From a virus, in the IMG/VR virus record IMGVR_UViG_3300027708_000112, positions 1 to 46,901 of that record: a stretch of DNA of 46,901 nt; one strand, 5' to 3'. Below the pieces are notes generated by a model, which was not told the DNA's origin, did not search any database, and saw nothing but the letters and a program-made list of their open reading frames with translations. The position numbers and the translations under genes are program-made. Position 1 is the stretch's first letter. Each line of letters begins with the position of its first letter. Of this stretch, positions 20,530-46,901 are shown in pieces.

Positions 20530-23500
20530 ATGGCAAAATTAAAAGACGGTACTAGAATTTATGGTGATGCACAAGTCGACCAAACACTAACCGTAGGCAA
20601 TATTACAATTAGCGGTAACTTAGTAGTTACTGGTACTACAACGTCAGTTAACAGTACAGTTACTCAATTACAAGATCCAATCTTTGAATTGGGCACAGGC
20701 GCAAACGGAGCGGCACTAACAACTGATGATGGAAAAGAACGTGGTATTTTAATGCACTACTGGAATGGTAGTGCGGATACTAAAGCATTCATGGGTTGGC
20801 ACACAACTAATGGGCAATTTGAATTTGGTGCATCTGCTACCGAAGGTGCTGGAAAAGATGGTAACATCACTGTAGCAACATATGGTAACGTAAAAGCATC
20901 TCACTTTATAGGTGAAGGTGACACACTAGCAAATATTACTGGTGCTAATGTTACTGGTACAGTATCAAATGCAAACAATTCAGCATATGCAGGTATAGTT
21001 ACTGGTGCATCACAGGGTAACATAACAAGTCTTGGTAATTTAACTGGTTTACAAATTGGTAATGCTAGTACTACAGGTAATGTAGTTATTACAACAAATG
21101 GTACAATTACAGCTACAGGTCAAATTAATGCGGCTAATACAGCATCAAGTACAAGCACAACAACAGGTGCATTGATTGTTGGTGGTGGTACAGGTATTGC
21201 TGGTGATTTATGGGTTGGCGGAACAATTCACGGAACTGTTAGCGGTACTACAAGTGCTCCTGGTGCGAATACACAAGTAGGATTTAACGATGGTGGTACT
21301 ACAAACGCAACAGCAGGTTTCACGTTTGACAAATCAAGCAATACAGTAAGCACAACTGCTTTAGTATTAGGTGGCGCGGCAAACATTGAAGGCAACATCA
21401 ACATGACTGCCGCTATTGGTAACATTAAAGGTGGAAATCTTTCAATTTTAGCTACCACTACTGCTATATTAAACGGTGGAACTTCATACGCTAATCTAAC
21501 TTCATCTAGTGTAGTTTTAGAAACTTCCGGTGGTAATGTTACACTTAATAATAATGGTAATTTGACTGTTGGTACTGGCGCATTAAAAGTCAATTCAAAT
21601 GCAGCTATCTTTTCTGATGGTACTGCAAACGTAAAATCAATGATTGCAACTGGATCTGGTAACGTTGGTACAGCAAACGTTGGTAGTGCTATTGTTAGAG
21701 ATTTGTCTCAGGATCAAATTCCATTCTTAAATGGTGATAGTAGATTAGTTGGTGAATCAACATTCAAATATACTACAGGTACAAGTACATTAACAGTTGC
21801 TAATGCTACATTATCTGGTACAGCGAATGCAGCCAATGTTATTGTTACTAGCTTGGGTGATACACGCATTCCTTTTGCTAACGCAACAAAAGCATTGATT
21901 GACAGTGCTAACTTAACATTCAATTCAACAAGCAATACATTGTCAGTTTTCAACGCTACATTGGGTGGTACTGCAAATGCAGCCGAAGTTATTGTTACAA
22001 GCTTGACATCAACACGTGTTCCGTTTGTTGATACAGACAAGTCATTAACTGATGATAGCACATTCAAATTTACAACAGCTGGTTCTAAACTAGAAGTTGG
22101 TAATGTTGATTTAACTGGTGCACTAGTTGCAGCCAATGTAACTTCAAATAATCTAACATCTGGTCGTGTTACACTTGCAGGTTTATCTGGTAAATTACAA
22201 GATAGCGCAAATCTAACATTTGATGGTAACGTATTAACTGTTACAGGTAACGTAGCCGCAACTAATATCAAAACAGATAATTTGTTATATGCTAATGGAT
22301 CAGCTTGGGACTTACAACAAGCTCAAGGTAGTAACGGAGCAATTCAGTTTAACACAAATAATAACTTTGATGCAAGTGCAAATCTATCATTCAACACAAC
22401 AGGTAATGTTTTAACTACTGACAGCTTACAGTTAAATGCTAATGCAAACGTAGGTAATGCTGTTGTACGAAATTTAACTGATACACGCCTTGTATTCTCT
22501 GATTCAAATCACAAATTAGTAGACAGTTCAGACTTAACATACGGTTCTGGTAACCTAACAGTTAACGGTAACATTGTTACTGGTGGCGGTTCTGGTGGTA
22601 ACATTAGCGGTGTTAATTATCTATTTGCCAACATTGCTAACGTAGTAGATGTAAATGCTACGGGTAATCTTACTCTTACTGGTTATGCAAATGTAACTGG
22701 TAACTTGAATGCAGGTAATACAGTTATTACTGGTAACTTAACAGTTACAGGTACAACAACAAGCGTTAACACTACAGTTTCTCAGCTAACTGACCCGTTA
22801 TTTGAATTAGGTGGCGGCGCAAACGGAGCGGCACTAGCAAGCAATGATGCTTATGATCGTGGTTTATTCATGCATACACGTACTAGTGGTGTGAATAAAG
22901 ACTTGTTCATGGGTTGGGATAATTCTAACTCAACATTCGTTTTAGCACAAAACGTATCAGTAGTTAATAATGTAGTTGATTATGGTTCAAATGCTGCCCA
23001 AGTAGCCGCAAACCTTGCTGACTTAACATTAAGCAATATCTTTGCATACAATGCTAACTTTGGTGGTGTTGTATTCAGTAACGGTAACGTTACACTAGGA
23101 GCTGGAAGCTCATTCGTCGGTGACTTAACAGGTAACGTTACTGGTAATATTTCCGGTAACATTAAAGTAGCTGGTTCAAATGGTTCCGTTCAATTTGCTA
23201 CTAATGTAACAATTCATTATGGTTCTACTATAAATGCTACTGCTATTATGGCAGGCAGAACTTACGAAATCGTATCAGCTGGTACTACTGACTATACATT
23301 AATAGGAGCAGCCAATAATACTGTGGGTACACGATTTACTGCTTCAGGTGTTGGTACAGGTACAGGTACAGTTAAATCGTATAGTACATACGGTGACTTA
23401 GCTAATGACGGCTCTAATTTACTATATACTGGTGGAAACTTAAGTGTAAATGTTGGTACAGGTGGATATGTTAAGACTGACTATTTAACAGGTACATTAA

Positions 23501-24858
23501 CAACAGCATCACAACCAAACATAACAAGTGTTGGAACATTGACAAGCTTGTCTGTTTCAGGAAATATTTCTGGCTTTGGCGCAGGTAATGGTATCTTAAC
23601 AGATAATTTGTTCTATGCAAACGGTCAAGCTTGGGACTTGCAACAAGCATCTGGCTCAAATAATTATATCCAGTTCAACACTGATAATAATTTTGCATCA
23701 AGTGCTAAGTTTACATTTAACCCAACAGGTAATGTCTTTACAGTTGATGGTAATGCAAACATTACTGGTAAAGTTGAAACTTCTAACGTATTTGTTTCTA
23801 CACTGACTTCTGGTCGTGTTACATATGCAAGTACAAGTGGTAAATTAGTTGATGACTCTGCATTCACATTTGGATCAGGAAAATTAACTGTTGGTAATGT
23901 TGAACTTTCTGGCACTGCAAACGCAGCCAATGTTATTGTTACAAGATTAACAGCTACACGTGTTCCGTTTGTTGATAGTGATAAGTCATTGAAAGATGAT
24001 GCTAATTTGACATTTGCAAGTAACGAATTGAAAGTTACAGGTACTGCAAACGTTACTAGCACACTTACAGCAGCCAACGTTATTGTTACTGATTTGACAG
24101 GTGGACGCATCACGTTTGCTGAAGTTTCTACTGACCGATTAACTGATAGTGCTAACTTAGCATTTAACGCAGGTACAAATACATTGACAACTGATTATGC
24201 TAACGTAATTACAATCAATGCAAGTACTAATGCTAACGTTACTGGTAGTGTAATAGCCGGTAATGTTTATGCTAATTCAGGTACAGTTAAGGCTACTTAC
24301 TTAACAGGTACATTGACAACAGCATCTCAACCAAACGTAACAAGCGTTGGTACATTGACATCATTGGCAGTTAGTGGAACATCAAACTTAAATGCAATTG
24401 GTAATGTTTATATCTCTGGTGGTACTGCTGGTCAAATTATTCAGACAGATGGCGCAGGTAATTTAAGTTTCGTATCTAACGATACAACTAGAATTGTTAA
24501 TGGTACAAGTAATGTAAGCATTGCAACTTCTGGCGGTGATGCTGTAACAACAATTGCAGGTTCTACAATTCTTACAGTTTCTGGAACAGGGGCTAACGTA
24601 GTAGGTGTTGTTGAAGCATCAGGTAATATCACTGCAAACAATATTACTTCTAACAACTATATTACTGCAAACAGTACAACTGATGCAACTAGTGCGGCTG
24701 TTGGTAGTGCTATTCACACTAAGGGCGGTATCTCTGCTGAAGGTAATGTTTATGCTGGTAAGGCAGTTGGTTTTGCAGTTGGTAGTGGTAACACAGCAAG
24801 TGCGGCATATATTCAATACAACTCAACATCAGGTAGTTTAGACTTCATCTTCAATTAA
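20530..24858 (+). CDS. Large modular fibre protein (GTRIYG family), 1442 aa
   Basis: The start MAKLKDGTRIYGDAQVDQTL is shared with the gene at 25130; an AAAGGA site precedes it. It has two DP-(D/E)RG-GW modules (20602-20910 and 22723-22992) and three QPNITSVG-type repeats. Eight units of a ~45-residue module follow the pattern V(I)VTxLTxxR(V/I)PFxDxxKxLxDDS. It has two TDNL(F/L)YANGxAWDLQQA modules and a small domain MAGRTYEIVSAGTTDYTLIG near 23250-23370. Its C-terminal SLDFIFN ending matches that of the 19004 gene. Very repetitive Asn/Thr/Gly/Val sequence suggests a long beta-structured trimer. Function as host-contact fibre is inferred. Confidence 0.75.
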   Translation: MAKLKDGTRIYGDAQVDQTLTVGNITISGNLVVTGTTTSVNSTVTQLQDPIFELGTGANGAALTTDDGKERGILMHYWNGSADTKAFMGWHTTNGQFEFGASATEGAGKDGNITVATYGNVKASHFIGEGDTLANITGANVTGTVSNANNSAYAGIVTGASQGNITSLGNLTGLQIGNASTTGNVVITTNGTITATGQINAANTASSTSTTTGALIVGGGTGIAGDLWVGGTIHGTVSGTTSAPGANTQVGFNDGGTTNATAGFTFDKSSNTVSTTALVLGGAANIEGNINMTAAIGNIKGGNLSILATTTAILNGGTSYANLTSSSVVLETSGGNVTLNNNGNLTVGTGALKVNSNAAIFSDGTANVKSMIATGSGNVGTANVGSAIVRDLSQDQIPFLNGDSRLVGESTFKYTTGTSTLTVANATLSGTANAANVIVTSLGDTRIPFANATKALIDSANLTFNSTSNTLSVFNATLGGTANAAEVIVTSLTSTRVPFVDTDKSLTDDSTFKFTTAGSKLEVGNVDLTGALVAANVTSNNLTSGRVTLAGLSGKLQDSANLTFDGNVLTVTGNVAATNIKTDNLLYANGSAWDLQQAQGSNGAIQFNTNNNFDASANLSFNTTGNVLTTDSLQLNANANVGNAVVRNLTDTRLVFSDSNHKLVDSSDLTYGSGNLTVNGNIVTGGGSGGNISGVNYLFANIANVVDVNATGNLTLTGYANVTGNLNAGNTVITGNLTVTGTTTSVNTTVSQLTDPLFELGGGANGAALASNDAYDRGLFMHTRTSGVNKDLFMGWDNSNSTFVLAQNVSVVNNVVDYGSNAAQVAANLADLTLSNIFAYNANFGGVVFSNGNVTLGAGSSFVGDLTGNVTGNISGNIKVAGSNGSVQFATNVTIHYGSTINATAIMAGRTYEIVSAGTTDYTLIGAANNTVGTRFTASGVGTGTGTVKSYSTYGDLANDGSNLLYTGGNLSVNVGTGGYVKTDYLTGTLTTASQPNITSVGTLTSLSVSGNISGFGAGNGILTDNLFYANGQAWDLQQASGSNNYIQFNTDNNFASSAKFTFNPTGNVFTVDGNANITGKVETSNVFVSTLTSGRVTYASTSGKLVDDSAFTFGSGKLTVGNVELSGTANAANVIVTRLTATRVPFVDSDKSLKDDANLTFASNELKVTGTANVTSTLTAANVIVTDLTGGRITFAEVSTDRLTDSANLAFNAGTNTLTTDYANVITINASTNANVTGSVIAGNVYANSGTVKATYLTGTLTTASQPNVTSVGTLTSLAVSGTSNLNAIGNVYISGGTAGQIIQTDGAGNLSFVSNDTTRIVNGTSNVSIATSGGDAVTTIAGSTILTVSGTGANVVGVVEASGNITANNITSNNYITANSTTDATSAAVGSAIHTKGGISAEGNVYAGKAVGFAVGSGNTASAAYIQYNSTSGSLDFIFN

Positions 24859-24869
24859 TTGGAGATGTT

Positions 24870-25103
24870 ATGGCTACAATTGCGGCAAGATTGGGTAACA
24901 CAGGAAACCTATATTGTGATAAAAACAACAGTATAGGGTTCAGCGAAATCAGCCAAGCAAATATAAGCATCACCCCTAATGGGGTGTTTGCTTATACGTT
25001 GGATGAATACACAGGCACCGAAAATAGTAAGGCCATGCAACAGCTAAATACGGGTGTACTAAAAATTTCCGGAGTTTTTGACGAAGTATCTGGAATAACA
25101 TAA
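24870..25103 (+). CDS. Small structural protein, LamG-less paralogue of the 19544 gene
   Basis: This 77-residue protein has a GGAG site before the ATG. TIAARLGNTGNLY, GFSEI, FAYTLDEYTG, KAMQQLNTGVLKI and FDEVSGI align in order with both ends of the 315-residue LamG protein at 19544, which carries a lectin domain between them. Like that gene, it sits directly before a large GTRIYG fibre gene (25130), so it is the small partner of a duplicated gene pair. It may be an adaptor or capping piece for the fibre (inference). Confidence 0.7.
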   Translation: MATIAARLGNTGNLYCDKNNSIGFSEISQANISITPNGVFAYTLDEYTGTENSKAMQQLNTGVLKISGVFDEVSGIT

Positions 25104-25129
25104 GTATATAAGTAAGGTATAAAAACAGC

Positions 25130-27550
25130 ATGGCACTCTTACGATCAGGGACAAGAATATATGGTAACGCTACAATTGACACTGTTTTGGACATCAGTGG
25201 TCAAGATGCCGCTACCAGCAATGCTACCGGCGCATTAAAAGTAGCCGGTGGTATTGGCGTTAAGGGTAACGTATTCAGTACTGGAAATGTAACTGCATTA
25301 AATGCTAGTTTAGGCAATCTAGTAATTGCTAATTACTATCAAGGCACGTTAACAACAAACGCACAGCCCAATATTACATCAGTTGGGCAACTAACATCAT
25401 TAACAATCACCGGTGATTTAACCGGTAATAATGCTACACTTTCTGGTAATTTAATTGTAAATGGAAGCTTAGTGTATGCTAACGTTTCTACAGTAAACAT
25501 TAAAGATCCAATAATTGAACAAGGTGGAGGTGTTGATGGAACTGCACTTGGAACTAATGATTTAAAGGATCGCGGAACATTATTACATTACTATACAACT
25601 GCACCCATTGACGCATTCATGGGTTGGGATAATTCAAATGCAGAGTTTGCGTTTGGTAGCAATGTATCAGTAACAAGTGAGATTGTAACATTTAATACAT
25701 TAGGTAATGTACGTGCTAATAATTTCTTAGGTAATCTAAGTGGTTCTGCTAGTACAGTCACATCATCATCTCAACCAAATATAACATCAGTTGGTACACT
25801 ACTTAACACTACAATGGGCGGTGCAAACTCATTGTCTGGTGGTAATTTAGTAAGTGCTACTTACTTGTCAGGTACAATAACAACAAATGCACAACCAAAC
25901 ATTACAAGTCTTGGAACATTGTCTGGATTAAATGTTTTAGGTTCTTCTAATTTGGGTCCACCCGCAAATGTACGAATCACAGGTGGTAGTTCTGGTTATG
26001 TATTATCTACAGACGGTAATGGTAATTTAAGTTGGGTAACTAGTTATAGTGGTACTGGTAATGCTAACGTTGGCGGTAGTAACACGCAGATTCAATATAA
26101 TGATGGTACTAATTTAGCAGGCAGTGCAAATTTAACATTCAATTCAACAACTAAAACATTAACAGTAGATAAAATTGTTGCTGATGGTGGATTATTAACA
26201 AACGTAGCGGCATCAAGTGCTACTACTGCTAGTACAGTAACAGCAAGTAATCAACCTAACATTACATCAGTTGGAACATTAACAAGTTTATCTGTTTCTG
26301 GTAACGTTAACTTCACTGGACCTAATGTAAGTTTGGGAAATGTAAGTAATTTACATATCACAGGTGGAACACCAAATTATGTATTGCAAACTGATGGTAC
26401 TGGTAACCTAACTTGGGTAAGTGCAGGCGCCGCATTACAATCATCAGGTGGAATAGCAATTGTATCTACCATCTCTAATATTGTTGCAGGTTCTACAATT
26501 GATGTAAGTGTAAGTTATACTGATCCAGCTTACCCAGGTGGTACATATACAATTGCTCAGTTAGGTCCTGTAACACTGAGTACAACAGACGTTTGGTATG
26601 GCGGTGGTTCTAGTAAGAATGCTTATGCAAACTACATTGCAGGAACTGTTAATACACAAAATGTTAACGTTACATTCAGTCTAGCAAATGCAACTTTCAA
26701 TGTACAAAGTAGTGATTATATTAATATTGGTAGCAGTAATGTAACTGGAGCAAATCTATTAGCACTGAACATCACAGCTAACGGAACATACACGATTCCA
26801 AGTTCATACTTAACTGGCGCAGGAACGCAGACTAATACATCAGATGCAGTAAGTGTAAGTTTAACTACAAATAGAGGTGTTTACACATCTACTGGAACAA
26901 CATTAACAAACAATCAACCTGTACCATTCAATATAACAGCATTAAGTGGTACTTTCCCAAGCTCATCAGTTCCATATTGGAGCTTGAATCAGACATTTAA
27001 CTGGAATGCAACTACAACAAGTGGTGCAACAGTAGCAAGTGGTAACGTATCTTATGCTAATACTGCAAATAGTATTTCTGGTACATTAACAAGTTCTGGT
27101 GAAACAAGCGGAACTAGTACTTCATTAGATAGTACAATGAATTATACTATCACAAGTAGTGATTATTATGGTGCTGGTCAATATGGTGCTGGTAGTAGGT
27201 CAATGACCGCTACTGTTAACGGTACAGTAACTGCGGCAACTAAATATTACCCGTTGTTTTGGAAGATAACATCTAATAGTACTGTACCAACATTTACTAC
27301 AAGCGACAGTCATGGTACTGCAAACATTGTAATTGGTACTTCTTATGCTAATACCAATACTACATCATCAGATTATCTTTGGATGGCAACACCAACTACG
27401 GCATCACATACATTTAAACACATATTCTTGGGGTCAGATATTGTAGATACACCAAACGCAACTGGTGATGTTACTATTTCTGGTCAGGCTTATAAAGTCT
27501 GGGGATTTACTACTTTTAGTCAAGTAGCATCTATTATAATTACATCATAA
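25130..27550 (+). CDS. Modular fibre protein with unique C-terminal domain, 806 aa
   Basis: The start MALLRSGTRIYGNATIDTVL matches the 20530 gene. Then follow TSNATGALKVAGGIGVKGNV, four QPNITS(V/L)G repeats, one DP-DRG-GWD module (25440-25735) and a GSNTQIQYNDGTNLAGSANL module. From about 26430 (residue 434) the sequence changes to a ~370-residue region without these repeats. It includes VDVSVSYTDPAYPGGTY, DVWYGGGSSKNAYANY and KVWGFTTFSQVASIIITS. This is a good candidate for the receptor-binding tip (inference from position and uniqueness). An AAGG site precedes the start. Confidence 0.75.
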   Translation: MALLRSGTRIYGNATIDTVLDISGQDAATSNATGALKVAGGIGVKGNVFSTGNVTALNASLGNLVIANYYQGTLTTNAQPNITSVGQLTSLTITGDLTGNNATLSGNLIVNGSLVYANVSTVNIKDPIIEQGGGVDGTALGTNDLKDRGTLLHYYTTAPIDAFMGWDNSNAEFAFGSNVSVTSEIVTFNTLGNVRANNFLGNLSGSASTVTSSSQPNITSVGTLLNTTMGGANSLSGGNLVSATYLSGTITTNAQPNITSLGTLSGLNVLGSSNLGPPANVRITGGSSGYVLSTDGNGNLSWVTSYSGTGNANVGGSNTQIQYNDGTNLAGSANLTFNSTTKTLTVDKIVADGGLLTNVAASSATTASTVTASNQPNITSVGTLTSLSVSGNVNFTGPNVSLGNVSNLHITGGTPNYVLQTDGTGNLTWVSAGAALQSSGGIAIVSTISNIVAGSTIDVSVSYTDPAYPGGTYTIAQLGPVTLSTTDVWYGGGSSKNAYANYIAGTVNTQNVNVTFSLANATFNVQSSDYINIGSSNVTGANLLALNITANGTYTIPSSYLTGAGTQTNTSDAVSVSLTTNRGVYTSTGTTLTNNQPVPFNITALSGTFPSSSVPYWSLNQTFNWNATTTSGATVASGNVSYANTANSISGTLTSSGETSGTSTSLDSTMNYTITSSDYYGAGQYGAGSRSMTATVNGTVTAATKYYPLFWKITSNSTVPTFTTSDSHGTANIVIGTSYANTNTTSSDYLWMATPTTASHTFKHIFLGSDIVDTPNATGDVTISGQAYKVWGFTTFSQVASIIITS

Positions 27551-27551
27551 A

Positions 27552-28538
27552 ATGGCATCATTATCATTCCCATCCCCAACGCAACTGAAGAATATTTCTG
27601 ACCCTTCAATTGCTTCCGATGCGGCTACAAAAAACTATGTTGATAGTCAAATTTCCAGTGGTGGAAGTGTTGGGGCTGCCGGTAGCAACACACAAGTGCA
27701 ATTTAATACTGCCAATGTATTAAGTGCAAGTGCTAATTTTACATTCAACAGTGCAACTAATTTATTAACATTAACCGGTGATGCAGTTATTACCGGTAAT
27801 ATAACGGTTAATGGTGCAACTGAATACACTAACGTAACAAATATATACGTAAAAGATCCAATAATTGAACAAGGTGGCGGAGCAAATGCAGCCGCATTAA
27901 GTTCAAATGATAGCAAAGACCGTGGTCAACTTTTACATTACTATACTACCCAAGCAGTAGACGCATTCATGGGTTGGGATAACTCAAATGCTGAGTTTGC
28001 ATTTGGTAGTAATGTAAGTGTTACAAGTGAAATAGTAACATTCAACTCATACGGTAATGTACGTGCTAACGTATATTTTGGTAATGGTAGTCAGTTAACT
28101 AGTGTATCTGCTAGTACTGCCGCAACAGTAACAACTGCGGCACAACCAAATATTACAAGTACAGGTACATTAGTTAATCTAAGCGTATCCGGTAACACAG
28201 CATTTAGTGGTGCTAATGTAAGTTTAGGAAATATTAGTAATCTACATATTACTGGTGGTAGTGCTGGTTATCTATTAAAAACAGACGGAGCTGGTAATCT
28301 AAGTTGGTCCGCAGATACTTCACATTTAGATAGCGCAGTAGATGAGTATACAGGTGACGGTACTACTGTTGCATTTACCTTATCAGCTACACCTACTAGC
28401 AAAAATTATACATTTGCAGTAGTGCAAGGTGTTATGCAGCCAAAGAGTTCATATAGTGTAAGCGGGGCAATACTTACATTTAGTTCTGCACCCCCTAACG
28501 GAGCACTAGTTGAAGTCACAACTTTAGGGTTGAGTTAA
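27552..28538 (+). CDS. Fibre-like protein with DAATKNYVD start, 328 aa
   Basis: It starts 1 nt after the previous stop. The N terminus contains NISDPSIASDAATKNYVDSQ, a motif typical of phage tail-fibre proteins. It then has a GSNTQVQFNTANVLSASANF module, one DP-DRG-GWD module (27787-28085), one QPNITSTG repeat and a GNISNLHITGGSAGYLLKTD module. It ends in the common TGDGTTVAFTLS ... QPKSSYSVSGAILTFSSAPP domain. Directly past its TAA, the same frame continues for 18 codons encoding NDMYFWDENSTNWVEITT, so the protein may formerly have been longer. Probable short fibre or tip protein. Confidence 0.75.
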   Translation: MASLSFPSPTQLKNISDPSIASDAATKNYVDSQISSGGSVGAAGSNTQVQFNTANVLSASANFTFNSATNLLTLTGDAVITGNITVNGATEYTNVTNIYVKDPIIEQGGGANAAALSSNDSKDRGQLLHYYTTQAVDAFMGWDNSNAEFAFGSNVSVTSEIVTFNSYGNVRANVYFGNGSQLTSVSASTAATVTTAAQPNITSTGTLVNLSVSGNTAFSGANVSLGNISNLHITGGSAGYLLKTDGAGNLSWSADTSHLDSAVDEYTGDGTTVAFTLSATPTSKNYTFAVVQGVMQPKSSYSVSGAILTFSSAPPNGALVEVTTLGLS

Positions 28539-37853: not shown

Positions 37854-40724
37854 ATGAAACATGTAATAATAGAACAATACGCATTCACCCCAAGCACAAA
37901 AACAATCGTGGTCACTGGTAAATATATCAGAGCAGAACAATTGTTATTGATTACTAACGTAACCAGAGGTACAGTAGTATATAATTTTAGTGATCCTAGT
38001 TTACTTGGCACTATAACTAACACAGTAAGCACGACTACTGGAACAGAAACAACCACAATCGTATTAACCTATAATACAGCAAGTCATAGTAGCACAGATA
38101 AACTTGCTATTATGGTTGAAGAAACTTATACTGAAATTACCCCAAATGAAACATTACAAGACCCGGTTGGTAAATTACGTGTAAGTCAACCTCAATCATT
38201 GATTGATACTGACTTTGAATATGGTACACAACCAACTAAGTGGGAAAGTATTAGTTTATTAAACAATCGTCCAAGTGCTTTCTATGATGTTACTTCACCT
38301 ACTGTAATCTCAAACGTTACTTCAAGTACAACAACCGTTACTGTATCTATGTCTAATACAACAGGTTTAGTTGCAGGGCAACCTATTTTCATAATTGGTA
38401 CACTAGATATTGGCAATAGTGATGGTTGGTGGTTAGTTGATATAGTCAACACTAACGCTAATATAACTTACAAAACGTTTTCTGCTCCCACACAAGTCGG
38501 TGGTACTTTATACGATGCTACAAAAACATATTTGTATGCAGGTACATTCTTTACTGGCTCGGGTATTCCTACTTCTGGTATTGTTGCAAATGGATCAATA
38601 ATTACAGTAACTACTACAAACGCACATGGATTAACAATTGGTAATCACGTATTCATTTCTGGTACAACTGGTTTAACTGGTGTTAATGGTACATGGCAAA
38701 TTGCAACTACACCGACTAATACTACATTTACAATTACATCAACTATCAGTGCGGGTACCGCAACACTAGCTGCTGGTGCAAGTGCAACATTGTATACACG
38801 TACTCAAGGTTTCATAACACATCGTGCATTCGATGGCGGTGTACAGTTTTCAAATCAATTACCTTATCACGGTTATCAAGTTATTCGTCAAACCCGTCGT
38901 TATTTCCGATATCAATCAGGTAAAGGTATACAGTTTAGTACTGGTTCAATAATGAAACCAGCCGCATATGTTGACACTATGAGTAACGGTGGTAGCGGAA
39001 CAACTATTACAGTTAACACACGTTTCCCTCATGGTCTAAGTGCTGGTACAACAATTAAAGTTAGTGGGTGTGATGATAGTGCTTATAACGGAACATTCAC
39101 TGTTGTAACTGCCCCAACATTACTACAATTTACATATACCGCGACTTCTACTCCAGCAACATACCCTGCTACAGCAGTATTTTCAGGTAATATTGCTATT
39201 AGTCCAAGTCTTTGGTTTGGTAGTAAAAATCGTATTGGTATGTTTGACCAACAAAATGGTTTCTTCTATGAATATGATGGAGAAAATTTATATGCAGTTA
39301 AACGTAGCAGTACACAACAATTGGGTGGTTATTGTTCAGTTACTAATGGATCACCTACAGTTACTGGTACATTAACAACATTCTCAACTCAAATTAAACC
39401 AGGTGATATGGTTGTTATTCGTGGTCAAAGTTATACAGTATTGATTATTACTAGTGATACTAGTATGCAAGTTTATCCAGAATATAAAGGTATAACAGCC
39501 ACCAACGTATTATTAAGTAAAACAATTGATATTCGAACTAGACAAAGTAACTTTAATATTGACAAAGTAGACGGTACAGGGGCAAGTGGCTACAACGTTG
39601 ACTTGACACGTATGCAGATGTTCTACATGGACTATACATGGTACGGTGCTGGTGCAATTCGTTTTGGATTTAAAAACAATCGTGGTGAAATTATTTACGT
39701 TCATCGTATTCCAAATAACAACGTAAACACAGAAGCATATATGCGTAGTGGTAACTTACCTGCACGTTACGAAACAAATACACAAGCATATTATTCATAT
39801 TTGACAGCAACATTGTCAAGCAGTGCAACAACCGGGGCAACATTCTCATTATACGGATATCTTGATGATTGGCCAAGTACCGGTACAGTTGTACTTAACC
39901 AAGCGAGTGTTGGTGGAACAATTGAGTTTTTAACATATACTGCAAAAACATTAAACGCTATCAACGCCGCTGGGTATTATACTACAACATTTACAATTGG
40001 TACACGTGCAACAACAGGCGGCGCAGCTGCCGCAACAACATTTACTGTTACCGGTGCAGGCACATACACACCAGGTGGAACAGCACCTATCATGGTTACA
40101 CTAAGTAGCCCAGTACAAGCAAGTACAATCAGTCACTGGGGTTCATCAGTTATTATGGACGGACGTTATGACGATGATAAATCATTGGTGTTCAACGTTG
40201 GACAAAATACTGCGGTTCAAAACGTCACTGCTGGTACTCGTTACGCACTAATCAGCCTTCGTTCTGCACCCAGTGTAGATAACGGTATTACTGGATTGTT
40301 GGGCGCACGTGAAATTATTAACCGCATGCAGTTGATTATGCGACAGATGGATGCGTATACAACTCAACCATATCGTATTGATTTGATATTAAACGGTAGA
40401 GTGGCAAGTGGTTCATTTATACCAGTAGGTGGTTCAAGTTTATGTCAATACGCACTTCACGATCCAAGTACTACTATTTCAGGTGGTGAATCTATCTTCT
40501 CGTTCTTTACTAACTCATCTGGTGTTACTCAACAAGACTTGACATTGGTTCGAGATATTGGAACAAGTATTTTAGGTGGTGGTACAAGTTTAACATGTCC
40601 TACAACCAACAATAATAAATTTCCAGATGGTCCTGATATTGTTACAGTTTGCGCTACTGTTATTAGTAGTTCAGGTACAAACGCTATTAACGCTCGTATC
40701 TCTTGGACGGAAGCTCAGGCCTAA
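37854..40724 (+). CDS. Large conserved virion structural protein, 956 aa
   Basis: The N terminus MKHVIIEQYAFTPSTKTIVV leads to DPVGKLRVSQPQSLIDTDFE / YGTQPTKWESISLLNNRP (about residues 100-140), a landmark of a large structural protein family in T4-like marine phages. Three modules of the type (NA/FP)HGLxxGxxxxISG...NGT(W/F)xV follow (about residues 165-215, 245-300 and 375-425), a small phage beta-domain. YNVDLTRMQMFYMDYTWYG, AIRFGFKNNRGEIIYVHRIP and ARYET come near residues 578-645. Then there is a beta-rich region and a conserved end (REIINRMQLIMRQMDAYTTQ). It is less repetitive than the fibre genes. Baseplate or fibre-base structural role is inferred. Confidence 0.75.
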   Translation: MKHVIIEQYAFTPSTKTIVVTGKYIRAEQLLLITNVTRGTVVYNFSDPSLLGTITNTVSTTTGTETTTIVLTYNTASHSSTDKLAIMVEETYTEITPNETLQDPVGKLRVSQPQSLIDTDFEYGTQPTKWESISLLNNRPSAFYDVTSPTVISNVTSSTTTVTVSMSNTTGLVAGQPIFIIGTLDIGNSDGWWLVDIVNTNANITYKTFSAPTQVGGTLYDATKTYLYAGTFFTGSGIPTSGIVANGSIITVTTTNAHGLTIGNHVFISGTTGLTGVNGTWQIATTPTNTTFTITSTISAGTATLAAGASATLYTRTQGFITHRAFDGGVQFSNQLPYHGYQVIRQTRRYFRYQSGKGIQFSTGSIMKPAAYVDTMSNGGSGTTITVNTRFPHGLSAGTTIKVSGCDDSAYNGTFTVVTAPTLLQFTYTATSTPATYPATAVFSGNIAISPSLWFGSKNRIGMFDQQNGFFYEYDGENLYAVKRSSTQQLGGYCSVTNGSPTVTGTLTTFSTQIKPGDMVVIRGQSYTVLIITSDTSMQVYPEYKGITATNVLLSKTIDIRTRQSNFNIDKVDGTGASGYNVDLTRMQMFYMDYTWYGAGAIRFGFKNNRGEIIYVHRIPNNNVNTEAYMRSGNLPARYETNTQAYYSYLTATLSSSATTGATFSLYGYLDDWPSTGTVVLNQASVGGTIEFLTYTAKTLNAINAAGYYTTTFTIGTRATTGGAAAATTFTVTGAGTYTPGGTAPIMVTLSSPVQASTISHWGSSVIMDGRYDDDKSLVFNVGQNTAVQNVTAGTRYALISLRSAPSVDNGITGLLGAREIINRMQLIMRQMDAYTTQPYRIDLILNGRVASGSFIPVGGSSLCQYALHDPSTTISGGESIFSFFTNSSGVTQQDLTLVRDIGTSILGGGTSLTCPTTNNNKFPDGPDIVTVCATVISSSGTNAINARISWTEAQA

Positions 40725-40747: not shown

Positions 40748-41272
40748 ATGAGTACAAGAGATTACAACAAACACATAGTATCAACAACTCAACCCCCAAC
40801 AGGTAACCCGGGGGATGAGTGGTATAATCCTACCACAAACTATCTATACAAACTTTTTATAAATTCAGGTACAACTGTATCTTGGACACAAATTCCATCT
40901 ACTAACGTTACGGGTAGTGGTAGCGGTGGTACAGGTGCAACTGCTATCAACTTATCTACAAGTCCCACTATCACAAGTGGTTTATTAGAATTAAGTTTAA
41001 CAACATATACAGTATTTGAATTCCAATTAACACAAAATATAACTAGTATAACATTATCTAATGTGCCATCAGCCGGCACTATGTCAAGTTTTATGATAAT
41101 AATAACAGGTGATGGTACTGCAAGAACAGTAACATGGCCTGTAAGTTTTAAATGGCCCAGCGGCACAGCACCGTCAATTACAAGTACACTAAATAAAAAA
41201 GACGTTTTTGTATTCTTTAGCTCTGATGGCGGAAGTAGTTGGCAAGCGTTTATTTCAGGACAGAATTTATAA
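40748..41272 (+). CDS. Short structural/fibre-end protein, 174 aa
   Basis: A TAGGAG site lies before the ATG. The N terminus has TTQPPTGNPGDEWYNPTTNY and LYKLFINSGTTVSWTQIPS, the GD-W-Y module also present in the 11576 and 31400 genes. The C-terminal half (TVFEFQLTQNITSITLSNVP, SAGTMSSFMIIITGDGTART, VTWPVSFKWPSGTAP, DGGSSWQAFISGQ) is a very common C-terminal domain of phage tail proteins. Its stop overlaps the next start (ATG at 41272). Probably a small virion component; role unknown. Confidence 0.75.
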   Translation: MSTRDYNKHIVSTTQPPTGNPGDEWYNPTTNYLYKLFINSGTTVSWTQIPSTNVTGSGSGGTGATAINLSTSPTITSGLLELSLTTYTVFEFQLTQNITSITLSNVPSAGTMSSFMIIITGDGTARTVTWPVSFKWPSGTAPSITSTLNKKDVFVFFSSDGGSSWQAFISGQNL

Positions 41273-41802
41273 TGGCAAACTATGCACACATAGAAAATGG
41301 AACAATTACAGGTGTATATGATTTATATCCAGACAATTGGAGAAACATCAGTAATTTTTATCTATTAGAAAATGATATAGACACACTGCATGGGTTAGGC
41401 TGGAGAACTATTACTAAAACAACTCCTACATACAATAGTGATACGCAGTATGTTGGTAATCCTATTCATACAATTGAAAATGATACCGTTGTTGAAACAT
41501 ATGAAATAGTTAATATTGTTTTCTCTGAAATAGTACAACAAACTGAAGAAGAATTAGCCGCTATTAAATTAGCGCAACATAACTCTGCTATGGAAACATT
41601 GCGTAAGAAGCGTGATAAGTTATTAGCAGACACTGATTTTACACAACTCGCCGATATGATTAAAATAAACGGCACAGAGTTAACTCAATTATATGAGGAA
41701 TATAGGCAAGCATTACGTGATTTACCAAGTTCATACGCAACTGATAGTGAATTTGTTAGTGAGTCAAATGTAACTTACCCAACAAAACCCGGGAGTGCTT
41801 AA
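41272..41802 (+). CDS. Tail fibre assembly chaperone-like protein, 176 aa
   Basis: The ATG at 41272 overlaps the preceding TAA; the frame opens at 41239, but coupling favours the later start. The N terminus MANYAHIENGTITGVYDLYP, NWRNISNFYLLEND and LGWRTI resembles phage proteins that begin by describing a fibre-adjacent domain. The C terminus has LRKKRDKLLADTDFTQLADM and YRQALRDLPS, the signature of the tail-fibre assembly chaperone group (Caudo_TAP / XkdW-like: R..RD.LL..TD...........YRQALRD.P). It directly abuts the giant RCC1 gene, whose product is its likely client (inference). Confidence 0.72.
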   Translation: MANYAHIENGTITGVYDLYPDNWRNISNFYLLENDIDTLHGLGWRTITKTTPTYNSDTQYVGNPIHTIENDTVVETYEIVNIVFSEIVQQTEEELAAIKLAQHNSAMETLRKKRDKLLADTDFTQLADMIKINGTELTQLYEEYRQALRDLPSSYATDSEFVSESNVTYPTKPGSA

Positions 41803-44800
41803 ATGTCCTTCGTGGATTTCAAGCTAATAGGTCTAAATAGATTTCCTACTAGTCTATACATGTGGGGTGACAATACTAACGGCTTATTAGGTGATAACCG
41901 CACACTAACTTATTTCAGTTGGAGTAAAATATCTAGTGGTGGACTACACACTGTTGCTATTCGTAGCGATGGATTATTATTTGCTTGGGGTCGTAACACT
42001 GAAGGTCAATTAGGAGACACTACAACCATACATCGTAGTAGCCCCGTACAACTATCAGCTACTATAAGTTGGAATAGTGTTAGTGCAGGATTAAGTCACA
42101 CTGTTGCTATTAAAGGTGATAGTACACTATGGGTTTGGGGTGGTAATAGATATGGTCAACTAGGTGATAGTACTACTGTTAGTAAAAGTAGTTGGGTACA
42201 AGTTGGTACAGGTAGTTGGAATGCAATATCTGCCGGTGGAAATCACAGTGTTGGTATTAATATCAATGGACAATTGTTTACTTGGGGATTTAACGGATTA
42301 GGCCAATTAGGTGATTCAACAATAGTATTTAGATCAAGCCCGGTTCAAATAGGTACAGGTGATAGTTGGTTAAATGTAACAGCTGGTAAAACACATACAG
42401 TAGCAATAGCAACAACTTATAAATTATGGTCATGGGGCGATAACACATACGGTGAACTAGGCGATAGCACAACAATTAATCGTAGTAGCCCAGTTCAAAT
42501 TGGTTCAAATAATTGGTCACAAGTTAGTGCAGGTGGAACACATACTGCGGGTATCAACTCAACAGGTTTGTTATTAACTTGGGGATATAATAACTATGGT
42601 CAATTAGGTCTTAATACATTTTATTCTGGTAGTTATTATACACAAGTAAGTGAAGGCCCAACACATACATTAGCTATTCGTAATGACGGTGCATTGTTTG
42701 TATGGGGACGCAACCAATTAGGTCAATTAGGATTAGGTGATACTCTTTCTCGTAGTAGTCCAGTACAACTTGGTACTAGTAGTTGGACTAGTGTAGATGC
42801 AGGTAACAGTCATAGTGTTGCTGTTCGTAGTGATGGCAAACTATTTACTTGGGGCTCTAATGATTGGGGACAACTTGGTAATAACTTAACAAATACTACT
42901 CCTTCAATTAATATTGCATGGAGTAAAATTGTAGTAAGTAGTTCAAGTATCCATACTATGGCTATTAAAAATGATGGTACATTATGGGGTTGGGGTCAAC
43001 AAGGCAGTGAAGGTAGAATAGGTGATGGTACAACTATTAATAGAAGTAGCCCAGTTCAAGTTGGATCATTAAACACATGGATTGATGTTGCTGTAGGTTC
43101 AGGTCACTCTATGGGTATTACAAATGATAATGTGTTATATACTTGGGGTATAAACAGCTTTGGTCAATTGGGTGACGGCACGGCAACAGCAAGAACAAGT
43201 CCAGTAGTAGTTGGATTCAATTACAAAAAAGTATTTGCAGGGTATCAAACTAGTTTAGCAATAGATAATAATAATTTAGCATATATCTGGGGAGACAATA
43301 ACAATGGTCTTATCCCCGGTGGTATCGTGGGTACACACCGTTCAAATATTGCAACACTTAATAGTGATACTAATTGGAGTTCATTTACAATTGACCAGCA
43401 TATATTAGGTACTAAAACAGACAGTAGTCTGTGGACATGGGGATTAGGAACAACAGGTCAATTAGGTTTAAATGATTTAGTAAGTCGTAGTAGCCCAACA
43501 CAAATTGGTACTAGTAGTTGGAGTATTATAAGTGCAGGTCTTTCATATAGTGTTGGTATTGCAAATGACAACTCATTATACGCATGGGGACTTAACAGTA
43601 GTGGTCAGCTAGGATTAAGTGATACTATCAACCGTAGCAGTCCAACACTAATTGGTTCTGCAACAAGAGTCATTGCCGGCAACGCACATACATTGATGAT
43701 TAATTCAGCAGGTAATTTATATACATGGGGATCAAATCAAGCAGGTCAACTAGGTGATACTACAGTAGTAGCAAGAAGTAGTCCAGTACAAGTAGGTACT
43801 GATACTTATAATTTTATAATAGCAGGAACTAGTAATTCAACTGCAATCCGTAGTACCGATAGCGCATTAATTACTTGGGGCTCAGGCATAAATGGACAAC
43901 TAGCTGATAATACAAATATAAGCAAATCTAGCCCGATACAAGTAGGTACAACACTTGCCAATCAAAGCAATCCAGTACAAATTGGTAATAGTAGTTATAC
44001 AATAGTAAGTGCCGGTGAAGGACATACATTAAGTTTAGGTGTTGATGGTATATTGTATGGTTGGGGCAAAAACGACCAAGGACAAATTGGTGGACAATTA
44101 AACACATTAGGTATAGGTTGGAGTAAAGTAGTTATAGGTCCAACACATTCGTTGGGTATTCGTTTTGACGGCACACTATATGCATGGGGAGATAATAGTA
44201 GTGGTCAGTTGGGTGATAGAACTGTTGTCGCTAAATCAAGTCCGGTAGTTATTGATTCTACTAATAACTGGAAAGATATTGCTGTTGGTCAAGGTTCTCA
44301 ATATTTCTCAATGGCTATTCGCACTGATGGTAAATTATATGCATGGGGGAATAACCAAGGTGGACAATTAGGTTGGGTATCATGGAGACAAATCAGTGTT
44401 GGTGGCGGGCATTCATTATTATTACGTAGTGATGGTGCACTATATACTATGGGTACTAACACTGCTGGACAATTAGGTGATGCAACGACAATTAACAAAA
44501 GCAGTCCAGTATTGATTGGTACAAGTAGTTGGAGTGTAATTAGTGCCGGTGTAAGTGCAAGCGCAGCCATTGACAGTATAGGTAGATTATTTACTTGGGG
44601 AAATGCTAACTTAGGTCAGATTGGACTTGCAACAACTGCAAATCGTAGTAGTCCGGTACAAGTAGCAAGTGGTAGTTGGAGTCAAGTTGCAATAAAAGAT
44701 TATACAATTGCAATCACAAGTCAAGGTTCAATTTGGAGTTGGGGCAACAATAATAATGGTCAGCTTGGCTTAGGTACTACTGTTAATAGTAAAGTACCTA

Positions 44801-46901
44801 AATTATTAGATGGTAGTGTTACATCATACGCTATTGGTTTTGATGGTATTGGTGATTCTTTAACTATCCCCACTAACACAGCATTTGTGTTTGGTACAGG
44901 TAATTTTACTATTGAATCATGGTTTTATATTACATCGGGAACAGCAGGAGCTATATTTGATACTAGATCGGGCGCGGTTGGTGTAACTCCTCTATTATTT
45001 TTCAGTTCTTCTCTACTGAGATATTATATAAACGGCGGAGATCAAATATTATCAACCACTACATTGTCGTTGAATACATGGTATCATGTTGCATTAGTAA
45101 GAAATTCCGGTAGTTCAAAAATGTATCTAAACGGAGTTCAAACAGGAAGCTCATTCGCTGACACAAATAATTTCACATTAACCAATACTATTACTATTGG
45201 TAGAGGGAATGACGGAAATAACTCGTTAAATGGATATATCTCTAATTTGAGGGTAGTTAAAGGTCAAGCACTATATACAAGTAGTTTTACACCAAGTACA
45301 ACACAGTTGACTACAACAAGTCAAGGTGCAACTGCCGGTAATGTAAGTTTATTGACCGCGCAGAGTGCAACTATAATTGATAATGGTATTGCTAACAGTG
45401 GTGTTGGATTTACAATAACATCAGTTGGTACTCCAACAACTACACAATACAATCCATTCAGTATTATATCTTCTACTAGTAGCACAAGTTGGACAACAGT
45501 GGCAGCCGGCACAAATAGTTTAGCTATTCGTAATAACGGTACATTATATACTTGGGGTCAAAACATTTATGGACAACTTGGCGATAGTACAACAGTTAGT
45601 AAATCTAGCCCAATTCAAATTGCTGGTAACTGGTCATTAATAAGTTCAAGCAATACAGGACACAACCTCGCTATTAAACTTGATGGTTCATTATTTGCTT
45701 GGGGCAGGAATACATACGGCGAATTAGGTATTAACAATGAATTTATTAATGTAAGTAGTCCAACTCAAATTGGTTCATATAGTTATACAAGTGTAAGTGC
45801 TGGAAATAATAATTCATTAGCAATCGCATTGAATGGTACAAATAATGTATTGTATGGATGGGGATTAAATGATTCAAATCAATTAAACAATATAGCTGCC
45901 TTTAGTTGGAAAAGTGTTCAAAGCAACGCAGGTATACAAGCAAATATTGGTAGTAATATAGGTAAATTATATCTATGGGGTGATAATACGTATGGTCAGT
46001 TAGGTGATAATACACTTGCGGCAAGAAGTAGTCCAACTCAATTAGGTGGATTTTCTGGTAATGGGGCATATAAACAAATTATTACCACTCCATTAAACAC
46101 AGTTATCATAGGAAATGATAATTCATTGTCAATAATGGGTGATAATACATATGGTCAGCTTGGTCAAGGTGATACAATAAGTCGTAGTAGCCCAGTACAA
46201 GTTGGTGTGGCGGGTCAATGGAGTGCAGTAGCAATTAGTGGTACTGGACATGTACTAGCAATTAGTTCAACCGGTACATTATTCGCATGGGGTAATAATC
46301 AATATAATGAATTAGGACAAAGTGATTTAGTAGTAGCTAATCGTAGTAGTCCAGTAAATGTAGGAACAAATGGAAATTGGACTAAAGTAAGTGTAGGTAA
46401 TAATTATTCTTTGGCAATCATTGATACTGGTGCCTTGTATACTTGGGGACGCAATGATTGGGGACAATTGGGTACTGCTAATCCATTAAGTTATACAAGT
46501 ATAGGTGCTGGTATAGTATCACGTAATGATGGTAAAATATTTATTTGGGGCAATAATGTATTTGGTCAAGTTGGCGATGGTACAACTATTAATCGTAGTG
46601 CCCCAACACAAATTTCAGGCATTACGCAAATTTCACTAAGTTGGACGAATGTTTCTGGATCATTGTATAATCATGCAAGCATAAGAAACAATAGCACACT
46701 ATGGGCATGGGGTGATAATACTTACGGACAGTTAGGACAAGTTGATACTATTCCAAGAAGTAATCCTGTACAAATTGGTATTAGTAGCTGGACACAAGTA
46801 TATGTAAATATTAACAACATATTTGCAATACGCAGTGATGGTAAACTATTTGCTTGGGGGAATAACAACGTAGGTCAATTAGGTACGAATGACACAATTA
46901 G
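41803..46901 (+). CDS. Giant RCC1 beta-propeller protein with embedded LamG domain (3' partial)
   Basis: An uninterrupted frame runs from the ATG right after the previous stop to the window end: at least 1,699 codons. After only ~18 residues, RCC1-type repeats begin, with consensus W..(V/I)SAG..HT(V/L)AI..DG.L(Y/F).WG.N..GQLGD.T...RSSPVQ(I/V)G. I count 31 WG-centred blades: 21 before and 10 after a LamG jelly roll (about 44836-45330; IGFDGIGDSLTIPT, NFTIESWFY, WYHVALVRNSGSSKMYLNG, ISNLRVVKGQALYTSSFTP). Spacing is mostly 47-51 residues, with a few short units of 35-41 residues. RCC1 repeats form seven-bladed propellers. No signal peptide or enzyme motif is visible. Likely a host-surface-binding virion or fibre protein (inference). 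Confidence 0.85.
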   Translation, partial: MSFVDFKLIGLNRFPTSLYMWGDNTNGLLGDNRTLTYFSWSKISSGGLHTVAIRSDGLLFAWGRNTEGQLGDTTTIHRSSPVQLSATISWNSVSAGLSHTVAIKGDSTLWVWGGNRYGQLGDSTTVSKSSWVQVGTGSWNAISAGGNHSVGININGQLFTWGFNGLGQLGDSTIVFRSSPVQIGTGDSWLNVTAGKTHTVAIATTYKLWSWGDNTYGELGDSTTINRSSPVQIGSNNWSQVSAGGTHTAGINSTGLLLTWGYNNYGQLGLNTFYSGSYYTQVSEGPTHTLAIRNDGALFVWGRNQLGQLGLGDTLSRSSPVQLGTSSWTSVDAGNSHSVAVRSDGKLFTWGSNDWGQLGNNLTNTTPSINIAWSKIVVSSSSIHTMAIKNDGTLWGWGQQGSEGRIGDGTTINRSSPVQVGSLNTWIDVAVGSGHSMGITNDNVLYTWGINSFGQLGDGTATARTSPVVVGFNYKKVFAGYQTSLAIDNNNLAYIWGDNNNGLIPGGIVGTHRSNIATLNSDTNWSSFTIDQHILGTKTDSSLWTWGLGTTGQLGLNDLVSRSSPTQIGTSSWSIISAGLSYSVGIANDNSLYAWGLNSSGQLGLSDTINRSSPTLIGSATRVIAGNAHTLMINSAGNLYTWGSNQAGQLGDTTVVARSSPVQVGTDTYNFIIAGTSNSTAIRSTDSALITWGSGINGQLADNTNISKSSPIQVGTTLANQSNPVQIGNSSYTIVSAGEGHTLSLGVDGILYGWGKNDQGQIGGQLNTLGIGWSKVVIGPTHSLGIRFDGTLYAWGDNSSGQLGDRTVVAKSSPVVIDSTNNWKDIAVGQGSQYFSMAIRTDGKLYAWGNNQGGQLGWVSWRQISVGGGHSLLLRSDGALYTMGTNTAGQLGDATTINKSSPVLIGTSSWSVISAGVSASAAIDSIGRLFTWGNANLGQIGLATTANRSSPVQVASGSWSQVAIKDYTIAITSQGSIWSWGNNNNGQLGLGTTVNSKVPKLLDGSVTSYAIGFDGIGDSLTIPTNTAFVFGTGNFTIESWFYITSGTAGAIFDTRSGAVGVTPLLFFSSSLLRYYINGGDQILSTTTLSLNTWYHVALVRNSGSSKMYLNGVQTGSSFADTNNFTLTNTITIGRGNDGNNSLNGYISNLRVVKGQALYTSSFTPSTTQLTTTSQGATAGNVSLLTAQSATIIDNGIANSGVGFTITSVGTPTTTQYNPFSIISSTSSTSWTTVAAGTNSLAIRNNGTLYTWGQNIYGQLGDSTTVSKSSPIQIAGNWSLISSSNTGHNLAIKLDGSLFAWGRNTYGELGINNEFINVSSPTQIGSYSYTSVSAGNNNSLAIALNGTNNVLYGWGLNDSNQLNNIAAFSWKSVQSNAGIQANIGSNIGKLYLWGDNTYGQLGDNTLAARSSPTQLGGFSGNGAYKQIITTPLNTVIIGNDNSLSIMGDNTYGQLGQGDTISRSSPVQVGVAGQWSAVAISGTGHVLAISSTGTLFAWGNNQYNELGQSDLVVANRSSPVNVGTNGNWTKVSVGNNYSLAIIDTGALYTWGRNDWGQLGTANPLSYTSIGAGIVSRNDGKIFIWGNNVFGQVGDGTTINRSAPTQISGITQISLSWTNVSGSLYNHASIRNNSTLWAWGDNTYGQLGQVDTIPRSNPVQIGISSWTQVYVNINNIFAIRSDGKLFAWGNNNVGQLGTNDTI
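44836..45330 (+). other. LamG/ConA-like domain inside the RCC1 giant
   Basis: About residues 1011-1176 of the RCC1 protein. It has the same landmarks as the LamG domain at 19733-20225: FDG..DSL.., GNFTIESWFYI, NTWYHVALV...G...MYLNG, and SNLRVVKGQALYT. It is followed by a similar linker (VSLLTAQSATIIDNG against KLLLKVIDSGSLVTD). It separates blades 21 and 22. Confidence 0.85.

Follow-up and report, generated by a model that had tools for sequence, protein, structure and literature searches.

The locus described here raises two questions: how the blades of an exceptionally long RCC1-repeat protein are arranged, and what such a protein does for a phage. The window, by which we mean the whole stretch of DNA analyzed, is an entire IMG/VR record (46,901 bases, linear, probably a fragment), and the contig end is therefore the true limit of the data and places the 3′ end of the gene out of reach. 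Our reading, with a probability of roughly 0.7, is that the product of the gene is a giant adhesin on the virion surface of a T4-like and probably jumbo phage, and that it is composed of closed seven-bladed RCC1 propellers that are nested within one another.

The RCC1 gene and its locus

The genes of the window on which the argument depends are the following.

7276–8472, + strand: major head protein, which places the phage among the jumbo T4-like phages (sequence comparison)
37854–40724, + strand: 956-aa virion structural protein, phrog_5838 (PHROGs), the conserved neighbor used as bait for relatives
40748–41272, + strand: 174-aa tail-fiber-like protein, phrog_9017 and 7760 (PHROGs)
41275–41802, + strand: tail-fiber-assembly chaperone, PF16778 Phage_tail_APC (Pfam, E=1.8e-11) and phrog_4912 (PHROGs), directly upstream of the RCC1 gene
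41803–46899, + strand: giant RCC1-propeller protein, 1699 codons, 3′ end missing, with 31 blades and one LamG insert (ORF list, Pfam, segmentation)

The ORF at 41803–46899 (+) begins with ATG and continues for 1699 codons with neither a frame break nor a stop before the contig end, in agreement with the original prediction of a gene cut by the end of the window. The prediction of at least 31 RCC1-type blades in this frame was also borne out. Direct segmentation gave 31 WG-motif blades, the last of which is cut by the window end, and PF00415 matched above its cut-off in 28 places. Whole-protein Pfam matches were WD40_RLD (E=1.9e-292) and RCC1 (E=1.9e-214), RCC1 is the PHROGs assignment too, and a sequence search gave UVR8, HERC2, RPGR and RCC1 as the best relatives of solved structure. 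The LamG domain that had been proposed for the same frame is a Laminin_G_3 match (PF13385, LamG/ConA-like lectin fold) at residues 1015–1153 (E=1.6e-19; 71.0 bits versus a cut-off of 27.6). Approximately 18 residues (MSFVDFKLIGLNRFPTSL) precede blade 1 and have no family match. The protein is neutral (net charge −3, pI 6.7), and neither its context nor its domain partners support the Ran exchange or nucleosome-binding role of eukaryotic RCC1 proper.

The gene order leading to the RCC1 gene is the 956-aa structural protein, the 174-aa fiber-like protein and the PF16778 chaperone, whose stop adjoins the RCC1 start. The major head protein is 64–68% identical to those of jumbo T4-like phages such as PA5oct, GAP32 and Vibrio phage 2.275.O, and its closest phages include Vibrio phage 2.275.O (349 kb), Sinorhizobium phage Phosso (469 kb), PA5oct and GAP32. 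Together with the chaperone and fiber-like genes upstream, this agrees with the earlier assignment to a T4-like tail-fiber locus, and because the closest head proteins are those of jumbo phages, the 47 kb of the contig probably cover only a small fraction of a jumbo genome. At the DNA level, a megablast of the first 25 kb of the window against phages gave no match, and neither did an exact 24-mer scan of viral contigs for the window-terminal sequence.

Other ORFs of the window are recorded here as separate observations. An 810-aa ORF at 1–2433, open at its 5′ end, has a VanY/endolysin-like region and is possibly a tail-associated lysin. A 1990-aa ORF at 11576–17548 has no Pfam match, and its last quarter matches phrog_8578 (function not known). 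The 315-aa ORF at 19544–20491 contains a second LamG domain (Laminin_G_3) that resembles the LamG parts of baseplate wedge proteins, and three adjoining ORFs at 20530–28538 (1442, 806 and 328 aa) match the same part of phrog_697 as a local paralogue series.

Relatives of the RCC1 protein

Relatives were collected in two sets (loci numbered L): 80 viral loci gathered via the 956-aa neighbor protein, and at least 595 encoding viral contigs found by RCC1 alignment, of which 80 were kept. A search by the chaperone alone returned only contig L012/L013. This is also the closest relative, with a 956-aa neighbor that is 84% identical and the same gene broken after 69 codons. The slot behind the 956-aa gene is very variable, holding RCC1 genes in L029, L034, L048, L075, L076 and L089, and collagen plus S74, LamG, F5/8C or Big_5 proteins in other relatives. 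The PF16778 chaperone gene lies 4–96 nt upstream in every complete relative of the nested class described below, and the predicted link to a fiber-assembly chaperone holds; the same gene also precedes the RCC1 gene of BUCT-ZZ01. The domains that partner RCC1 across the family are LamG, TIG and He_PIG, and two LamG inserts lie inside RCC1 blades of L177, a protein of independent origin in the set. Some relatives have an N-terminal motif of ~80 aa that, in Xanthomonas phages FoX1-5, makes up a tail-module protein by itself.

Several of these loci have features of their own. Five single-propeller RCC1 genes with N-terminal TIG/He_PIG Ig-like domains are arranged in tandem in L034 (4403–13228), and seven single-propeller genes in L132 (1301–9330); these arrays look like paralogue banks of adhesins. 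Larger RCC1 frames, with ~77–88 blade matches, are found in L119 (2–12766, >4,255 aa), L178 (2–14245, >4,748 aa) and L136 (6269–18487, 4,073 aa, complete). A gene of 354–355 aa follows the RCC1 gene in L029 (19386–20447), L075 (20677–21738) and L089 (20703–21767), with no Pfam match in the two that were scanned, and it might also follow the window gene past the contig end.

RCC1-type proteins of phages are not new as such. The window protein matches phrog_4219 (E=7.9e-142) and, in BFVD, a GAP32 protein (E=4.2e-23). GAP32 gp1, phAPEC6 gp003, gp549, gp551 and others, and W70_237-239 (phrog_4219; RaK2/121Q-type jumbo phages and Vequintavirinae) have an RCC1/BLIP-II-superfamily propeller like that of the window, and GAP32 and related jumbo phages share its T4-like head-protein clade. 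These proteins differ, however, in being ~40 kDa (about one propeller) and often present as multi-copy sets, and neither nesting nor a LamG domain has been reported for them. RCC1 repeats also stand beside tail-fiber genes in cyanomyoviruses and Clostridioides phages (BUCT-ZZ01, 702 aa; S-SRM01, three genes; LIBA6276, 1627 aa), but BUCT-ZZ01 has 14 blades, none of them short or long, and S-SRM01 has 6–7 per gene. Outside phages, the plant UV-B photoreceptor UVR8 and the RLD domains of HERC and RPGR share the seven-bladed fold, yet have one propeller per domain, and nothing in the phage protein points to light sensing or a GEF activity.

Seven-bladed units and the bracket rule

Among 55 complete distinct RCC1 ORFs with at least 10 blades, 27 have a blade count exactly divisible by seven (14 blades in 11, 21 in seven, 28 in five, plus 35, 42, 49 and 56; binomial p 9e-10, a statistic that ignores kinship), and a further 32 complete ORFs have seven blades each. 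Because the totals pile up on multiples of seven, the repeat unit is, judged from blade counts, the classic seven-bladed propeller.

The distance between the WG motif and the 'W..V.AG..H' motif that follows it is trimodal in one subfamily (~13–20, 25–33 and 38–48 residues). Alignment A2 showed that a normal blade has one SSPVQIG strand between these motifs, a short blade none and a long blade two. When a short blade is treated as an opening bracket and a long blade as a closing bracket, nine complete proteins parse automatically to levels of exactly seven. The largest is L104, with 63 blades in nine propellers and 8 opens for 8 closes; the others are L110 (49 blades), L089 and L102 (35 each), L105 and L116 (28), L129 and a second L104 gene (21), and L122 (14). 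In L110, for example, the runs 4,3,5,4,7,3,2,4,1,7,2,6 resolve as 4+1+2, 3+4, 5+2, 4+3, 7, 7 and 1+6. Sevens plus one 14 came from L029 (and its near-copy L115) and from L120 (and L121), the outcome expected if one insertion site housed two sibling propellers. These relatives make up what we call the nested-propeller class, with short and long blades paired off like brackets and a multiple of seven blades at each level.

The rule has exceptions. L107 (1227–8234) has six opening blades and a regular 4+3 split down to the innermost propeller, with sevens at five inner levels, but its two outermost levels hold 11 blades where 14 are expected; repeat collapse in assembly and a real exception are both possible. 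One 45-aa blade of L112/L113 must be counted as short, the last blade of L103 is degenerate, and the giants L117, L119, L136 and L178 gave no automatic parse under these simple rules.

In the window protein, the bracket parse gave the following features.

41863–41985, + strand: blade 1, short, without SPVQ strand, residues 21–61, open 1 (segmentation, bracket parse)
42580–42702, + strand: blade 6, short, residues 260–300, open 2 (segmentation, bracket parse)
42850–42990, + strand: blade 8, short, 47 aa, no SPVQ strand, residues 350–396, open 3 (by eye and alignment A2)
42919–43941, + strand: predicted closed seven-bladed propeller, residues 373–713, 28 predicted strands = 7 × 4 (AlphaFold, Foldseek)
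43876–44061, + strand: blade 15, long, two SPVQ strands, residues 692–753, close of open 3 exactly seven blades later (segmentation, parse, alignment A2)
44062–44184, + strand: blade 16, short, residues 754–794, open 4 (segmentation, bracket parse)
44344–44448, + strand: blade 18, short, residues 848–882, open 5 (segmentation, bracket parse)
44815–45483, + strand: LamG-containing insert, Pfam match 44845–45261 (Pfam, segmentation)
45859–45975, + strand: blade 24, short, residues 1353–1391, open 6 (segmentation, bracket parse)
46444–46545, + strand: blade 28, short, residues 1548–1581, open 7 (segmentation, bracket parse)

One bracket pair closes within the window, at seven, in a truncated gene and with an opening blade that was re-called: the automatic spacing cut-off placed blade 8 as normal, and inspection by eye with alignment A2 placed it as short. 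At the truncation the levels hold 1, 5, 3, 7 (closed), 2, 6, 4 and 3 blades, none more than seven. The LamG insert interrupts blade 21, with the SPVQ-like strand (KVPKLLDG) on one side and the SWTTVAAG strand on the other. If the rule holds, the seven unfinished levels need ~25 more blades, and the full gene would have at least 56 (8 × 7) and encode roughly 3,000 residues. Two other readings were tried and rejected. Short blades taken as the borders of simple tandem propellers give intervals of 5, 2, 7, 1, 2 and so on, with sevens only if the propellers are nested, and the LamG position taken as a closing bracket would shut a propeller at three blades. Where the original prediction had pictured a string of propellers, the blade pattern instead indicates propellers nested within one another.

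Predicted structures

AlphaFold was run on residues 347–754 of the window protein with 25 aligned inserted propellers. The model (pLDDT 82.9, pTM 0.77) predicts a closed ring of seven four-stranded blades with 3 + 24 + 1 = 28 strands, and Foldseek aligned it to UVR8 with TM 0.80/0.87, so that a propeller fold is predicted here as first proposed. The lone last strand (SPIQV; model residues 362–367, window residues 708–713) is the first SPVQ copy of the long blade and completes the first blade, and closure is thus predicted exactly where the nesting model needs it. The flanking pieces of the host propeller are of low confidence, as expected when their partners are absent.

The complete L122 protein (711 aa, 14 blades) was modeled with pLDDT 79.6 and pTM 0.58, and its best PDB match was UVR8 (TM 0.89 by target length). 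Its strands fall in nested order, with 28 in the inserted ring (residues 39–385) and 28 in the host ring (residues 19–24 plus 394–710); closure of the host ring is suggested by this strand order.

Fiber tips, the variable face and probable receptor binding

In the Pseudomonas phages PollyC and Ppr_SeaP1-4, the protein encoded in the T7 tail-fiber slot has an RCC1 propeller as its C-terminal part. These fibers resemble the window protein in having an RCC1 propeller, there in a host-attachment protein, but they belong to podoviruses and have a single propeller mounted on an anchor of T7 gp17 type and an Ala-rich stalk, with no nesting. The anchor is T7-fiber-like (PF03906, a weak match just under the cut-off), and its type is common to ~50 other Pseudomonas phages with other C-termini. 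In four of six pairs of these phages the RCC1 tips are 33–36% identical, versus 99–100% for the anchor, and the flanking internal virion protein and terminase are 99.5–100% identical. Littlefix (74.9 kb), isolated on the host strain of PollyC, shares just the RCC1 tip with it. The PollyC/SeaP tail-fiber loci (L099:4621–7224; L183; L184) lend themselves to laboratory study of receptor binding by RCC1 tips.

Across seven nested relatives, variation between blades was greatest at columns 3, 5, 6, 14–16 and 35–36, every one of them in loop A-B or C-D; the strands and loop D-A hardly vary, and loop B-C is mostly constant. Faces were assigned from strand order. Because loops A-B and C-D of an up-and-down blade share one side, the blade-to-blade variation in the relatives is, on this assignment, on one propeller face; the pattern is clean in L029, L089, L102, L110, L107 and L112. 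Between paralogous blades of L029, L089, L110 and L107, a comparison that is not a formal dN/dS test, first- and second-position divergence at the variable columns was 0.60–0.65 versus four-fold synonymous divergence of 0.28–0.39 at the conserved columns. Variable columns 35–36 align with W285/R286 of the UVR8 dimer interface. The window protein has only seven blades of standard length, and they differ at all positions.

A different role has been put forward for phage RCC1-like proteins. Mass spectrometry found them in the virions of phAPEC6, which has 11 gene copies (PMC7247149), of GAP32, with multi-copy genes in 121Q and PBEC04 (PMC5259590), and of W70 (PMC11370258), and the suggested role is the ordering or encapsidation of DNA, or DNA condensation (PMC7247149, PMC11370258). 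By this account the propellers would bind phage DNA inside the capsid as a genome-condensing or inner-head protein, which would suit the virion association of the homologues, the basic pI of 9.8–10.0 in L029, L089, L110 and L122, and the placement of the family by PHROGs under DNA metabolism. The suggestion, however, rests on the eukaryotic name, while the window protein is neutral and that of PollyC is acidic (pI 4.8). The genes occupy fiber slots behind a fiber chaperone, the partner domains are LamG, TIG and He_PIG, and in PollyC/SeaP it is the C-terminal tip of a T7-type fiber that diverges in constant surroundings. Since the tips diverge amid constant neighbors and the variation appears on one face, receptor binding fits better than DNA condensation, which we regard as improbable.

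It is about equally improbable that the protein decorates the virion surface and adheres non-specifically to polysaccharide, particles or debris with no single host receptor. The LamG insert and the large number of propellers per chain in relatives, with as many as 88 blade matches, would be in keeping with such a coat, as would the hairy appendages reported on phAPEC6 virions and the whiskers on CBB virions. The replacement-rich variation of one face and the allelic divergence of fiber tips in near-identical phages point instead to specific targets.

Host recognition by receptor binding is therefore the best-supported reading and a likely one; for the window protein it is suggested by genomic context, domain swapping and the single-face variability seen elsewhere. 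The recognition role in the original prediction of a distinct host-recognition class is thus partly supported; phage RCC1 proteins in themselves are already known from PHROGs and from the GAP32, phAPEC6 and W70 virions, and 'organelle' was an overstatement. In a search mostly outside subscription journals, we found no published account of RCC1 propellers as phage receptor-binding tips or of nested propellers, and it is the nested architecture and the receptor-binding reading that appear to be new in a known family.

Nested versus tandem arrangement

Where short and long blades are absent, many relatives have simple multiples of seven (14, 21, 28 and 35), and the AlphaFold model of L122 alone does not fix closure of the host propeller. 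Both would be compatible with plain tandem propellers, in which irregular loop deletions and duplications create a bracket pattern of no structural meaning. The order of the junctions argues against this. When junction labels were shuffled 200,000 times inside each protein, equally good orders numbered 0 for L104, L110 and L102, 1 for L089, 27 for L105, 20 for L116, 330 for L129, 345 for the second L104 gene and 7615 for L122, and the Fisher-combined permutation p was ~2e-29 across eleven proteins. In addition, short blades lack exactly the strand that long blades have doubled, and a tandem reading of the L110 runs gives sevens for the two innermost propellers only. We consider the tandem arrangement unlikely. 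An assembly artefact, in which mis-joined reads made or scrambled the repeat frame, is very improbable: the contig does end within repeats, as does that of L012, and three blades are unaccounted for in L107, but the standard-length blades of the window are too different to confuse an assembler (57% identical DNA on average, 67% at most), the frame is open across 1699 codons, and the same architecture is present in many independent contigs.

The proposed adhesin and its significance

We consider it very probable that the propellers are recursively nested, with a circularly permuted seven-bladed ring inserted in a blade loop of another, up to approximately five or six levels deep. Repeated insertion of this kind is indicated by blade patterns and models in the relatives, with one complete putative instance in the window. 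The chain would enter an inserted propeller through a short blade without the SPVQ strand and leave it through a long blade, whose first SPVQ strand would close the inserted propeller and whose second would resume the host blade. The window would then contain one complete inserted propeller (residues 373–713) and seven open levels, one of them with the LamG lectin-fold insert. It is just as probable that the strand order along the chain reads as balanced brackets with seven blades at each level, a design that would give very large adhesins with many binding faces on constant scaffolds. The ~18-residue N-terminus is too short to match a known anchor, and attachment to the tail or fiber apparatus is thus proposed indirectly, possibly aided by the chaperone encoded just upstream. 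Binding to the host surface would occur through the variable loops of one propeller face, and the many faces per chain may provide high-avidity or multi-ligand attachment.

The phage RCC1 families PHROGs 7220, 4219 and 16766 are at present filed under 'DNA, RNA and nucleotide metabolism', and our analysis suggests a structural or host-attachment category for them. If this reading is right, it corrects the database label 'regulator of chromosome condensation' and moves a widespread class (at least 595 encoding contigs) to host attachment. The nesting rule is unusual among protein domain architectures, and it predicts the missing end of a truncated gene. It also raises the question of how a chain that holds several unfinished propellers folds, and how both halves of each ring, left and right, come to be duplicated jointly. 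The combination of a constant scaffold with one variable face resembles other repeat-based recognition proteins and could serve as a binding scaffold.
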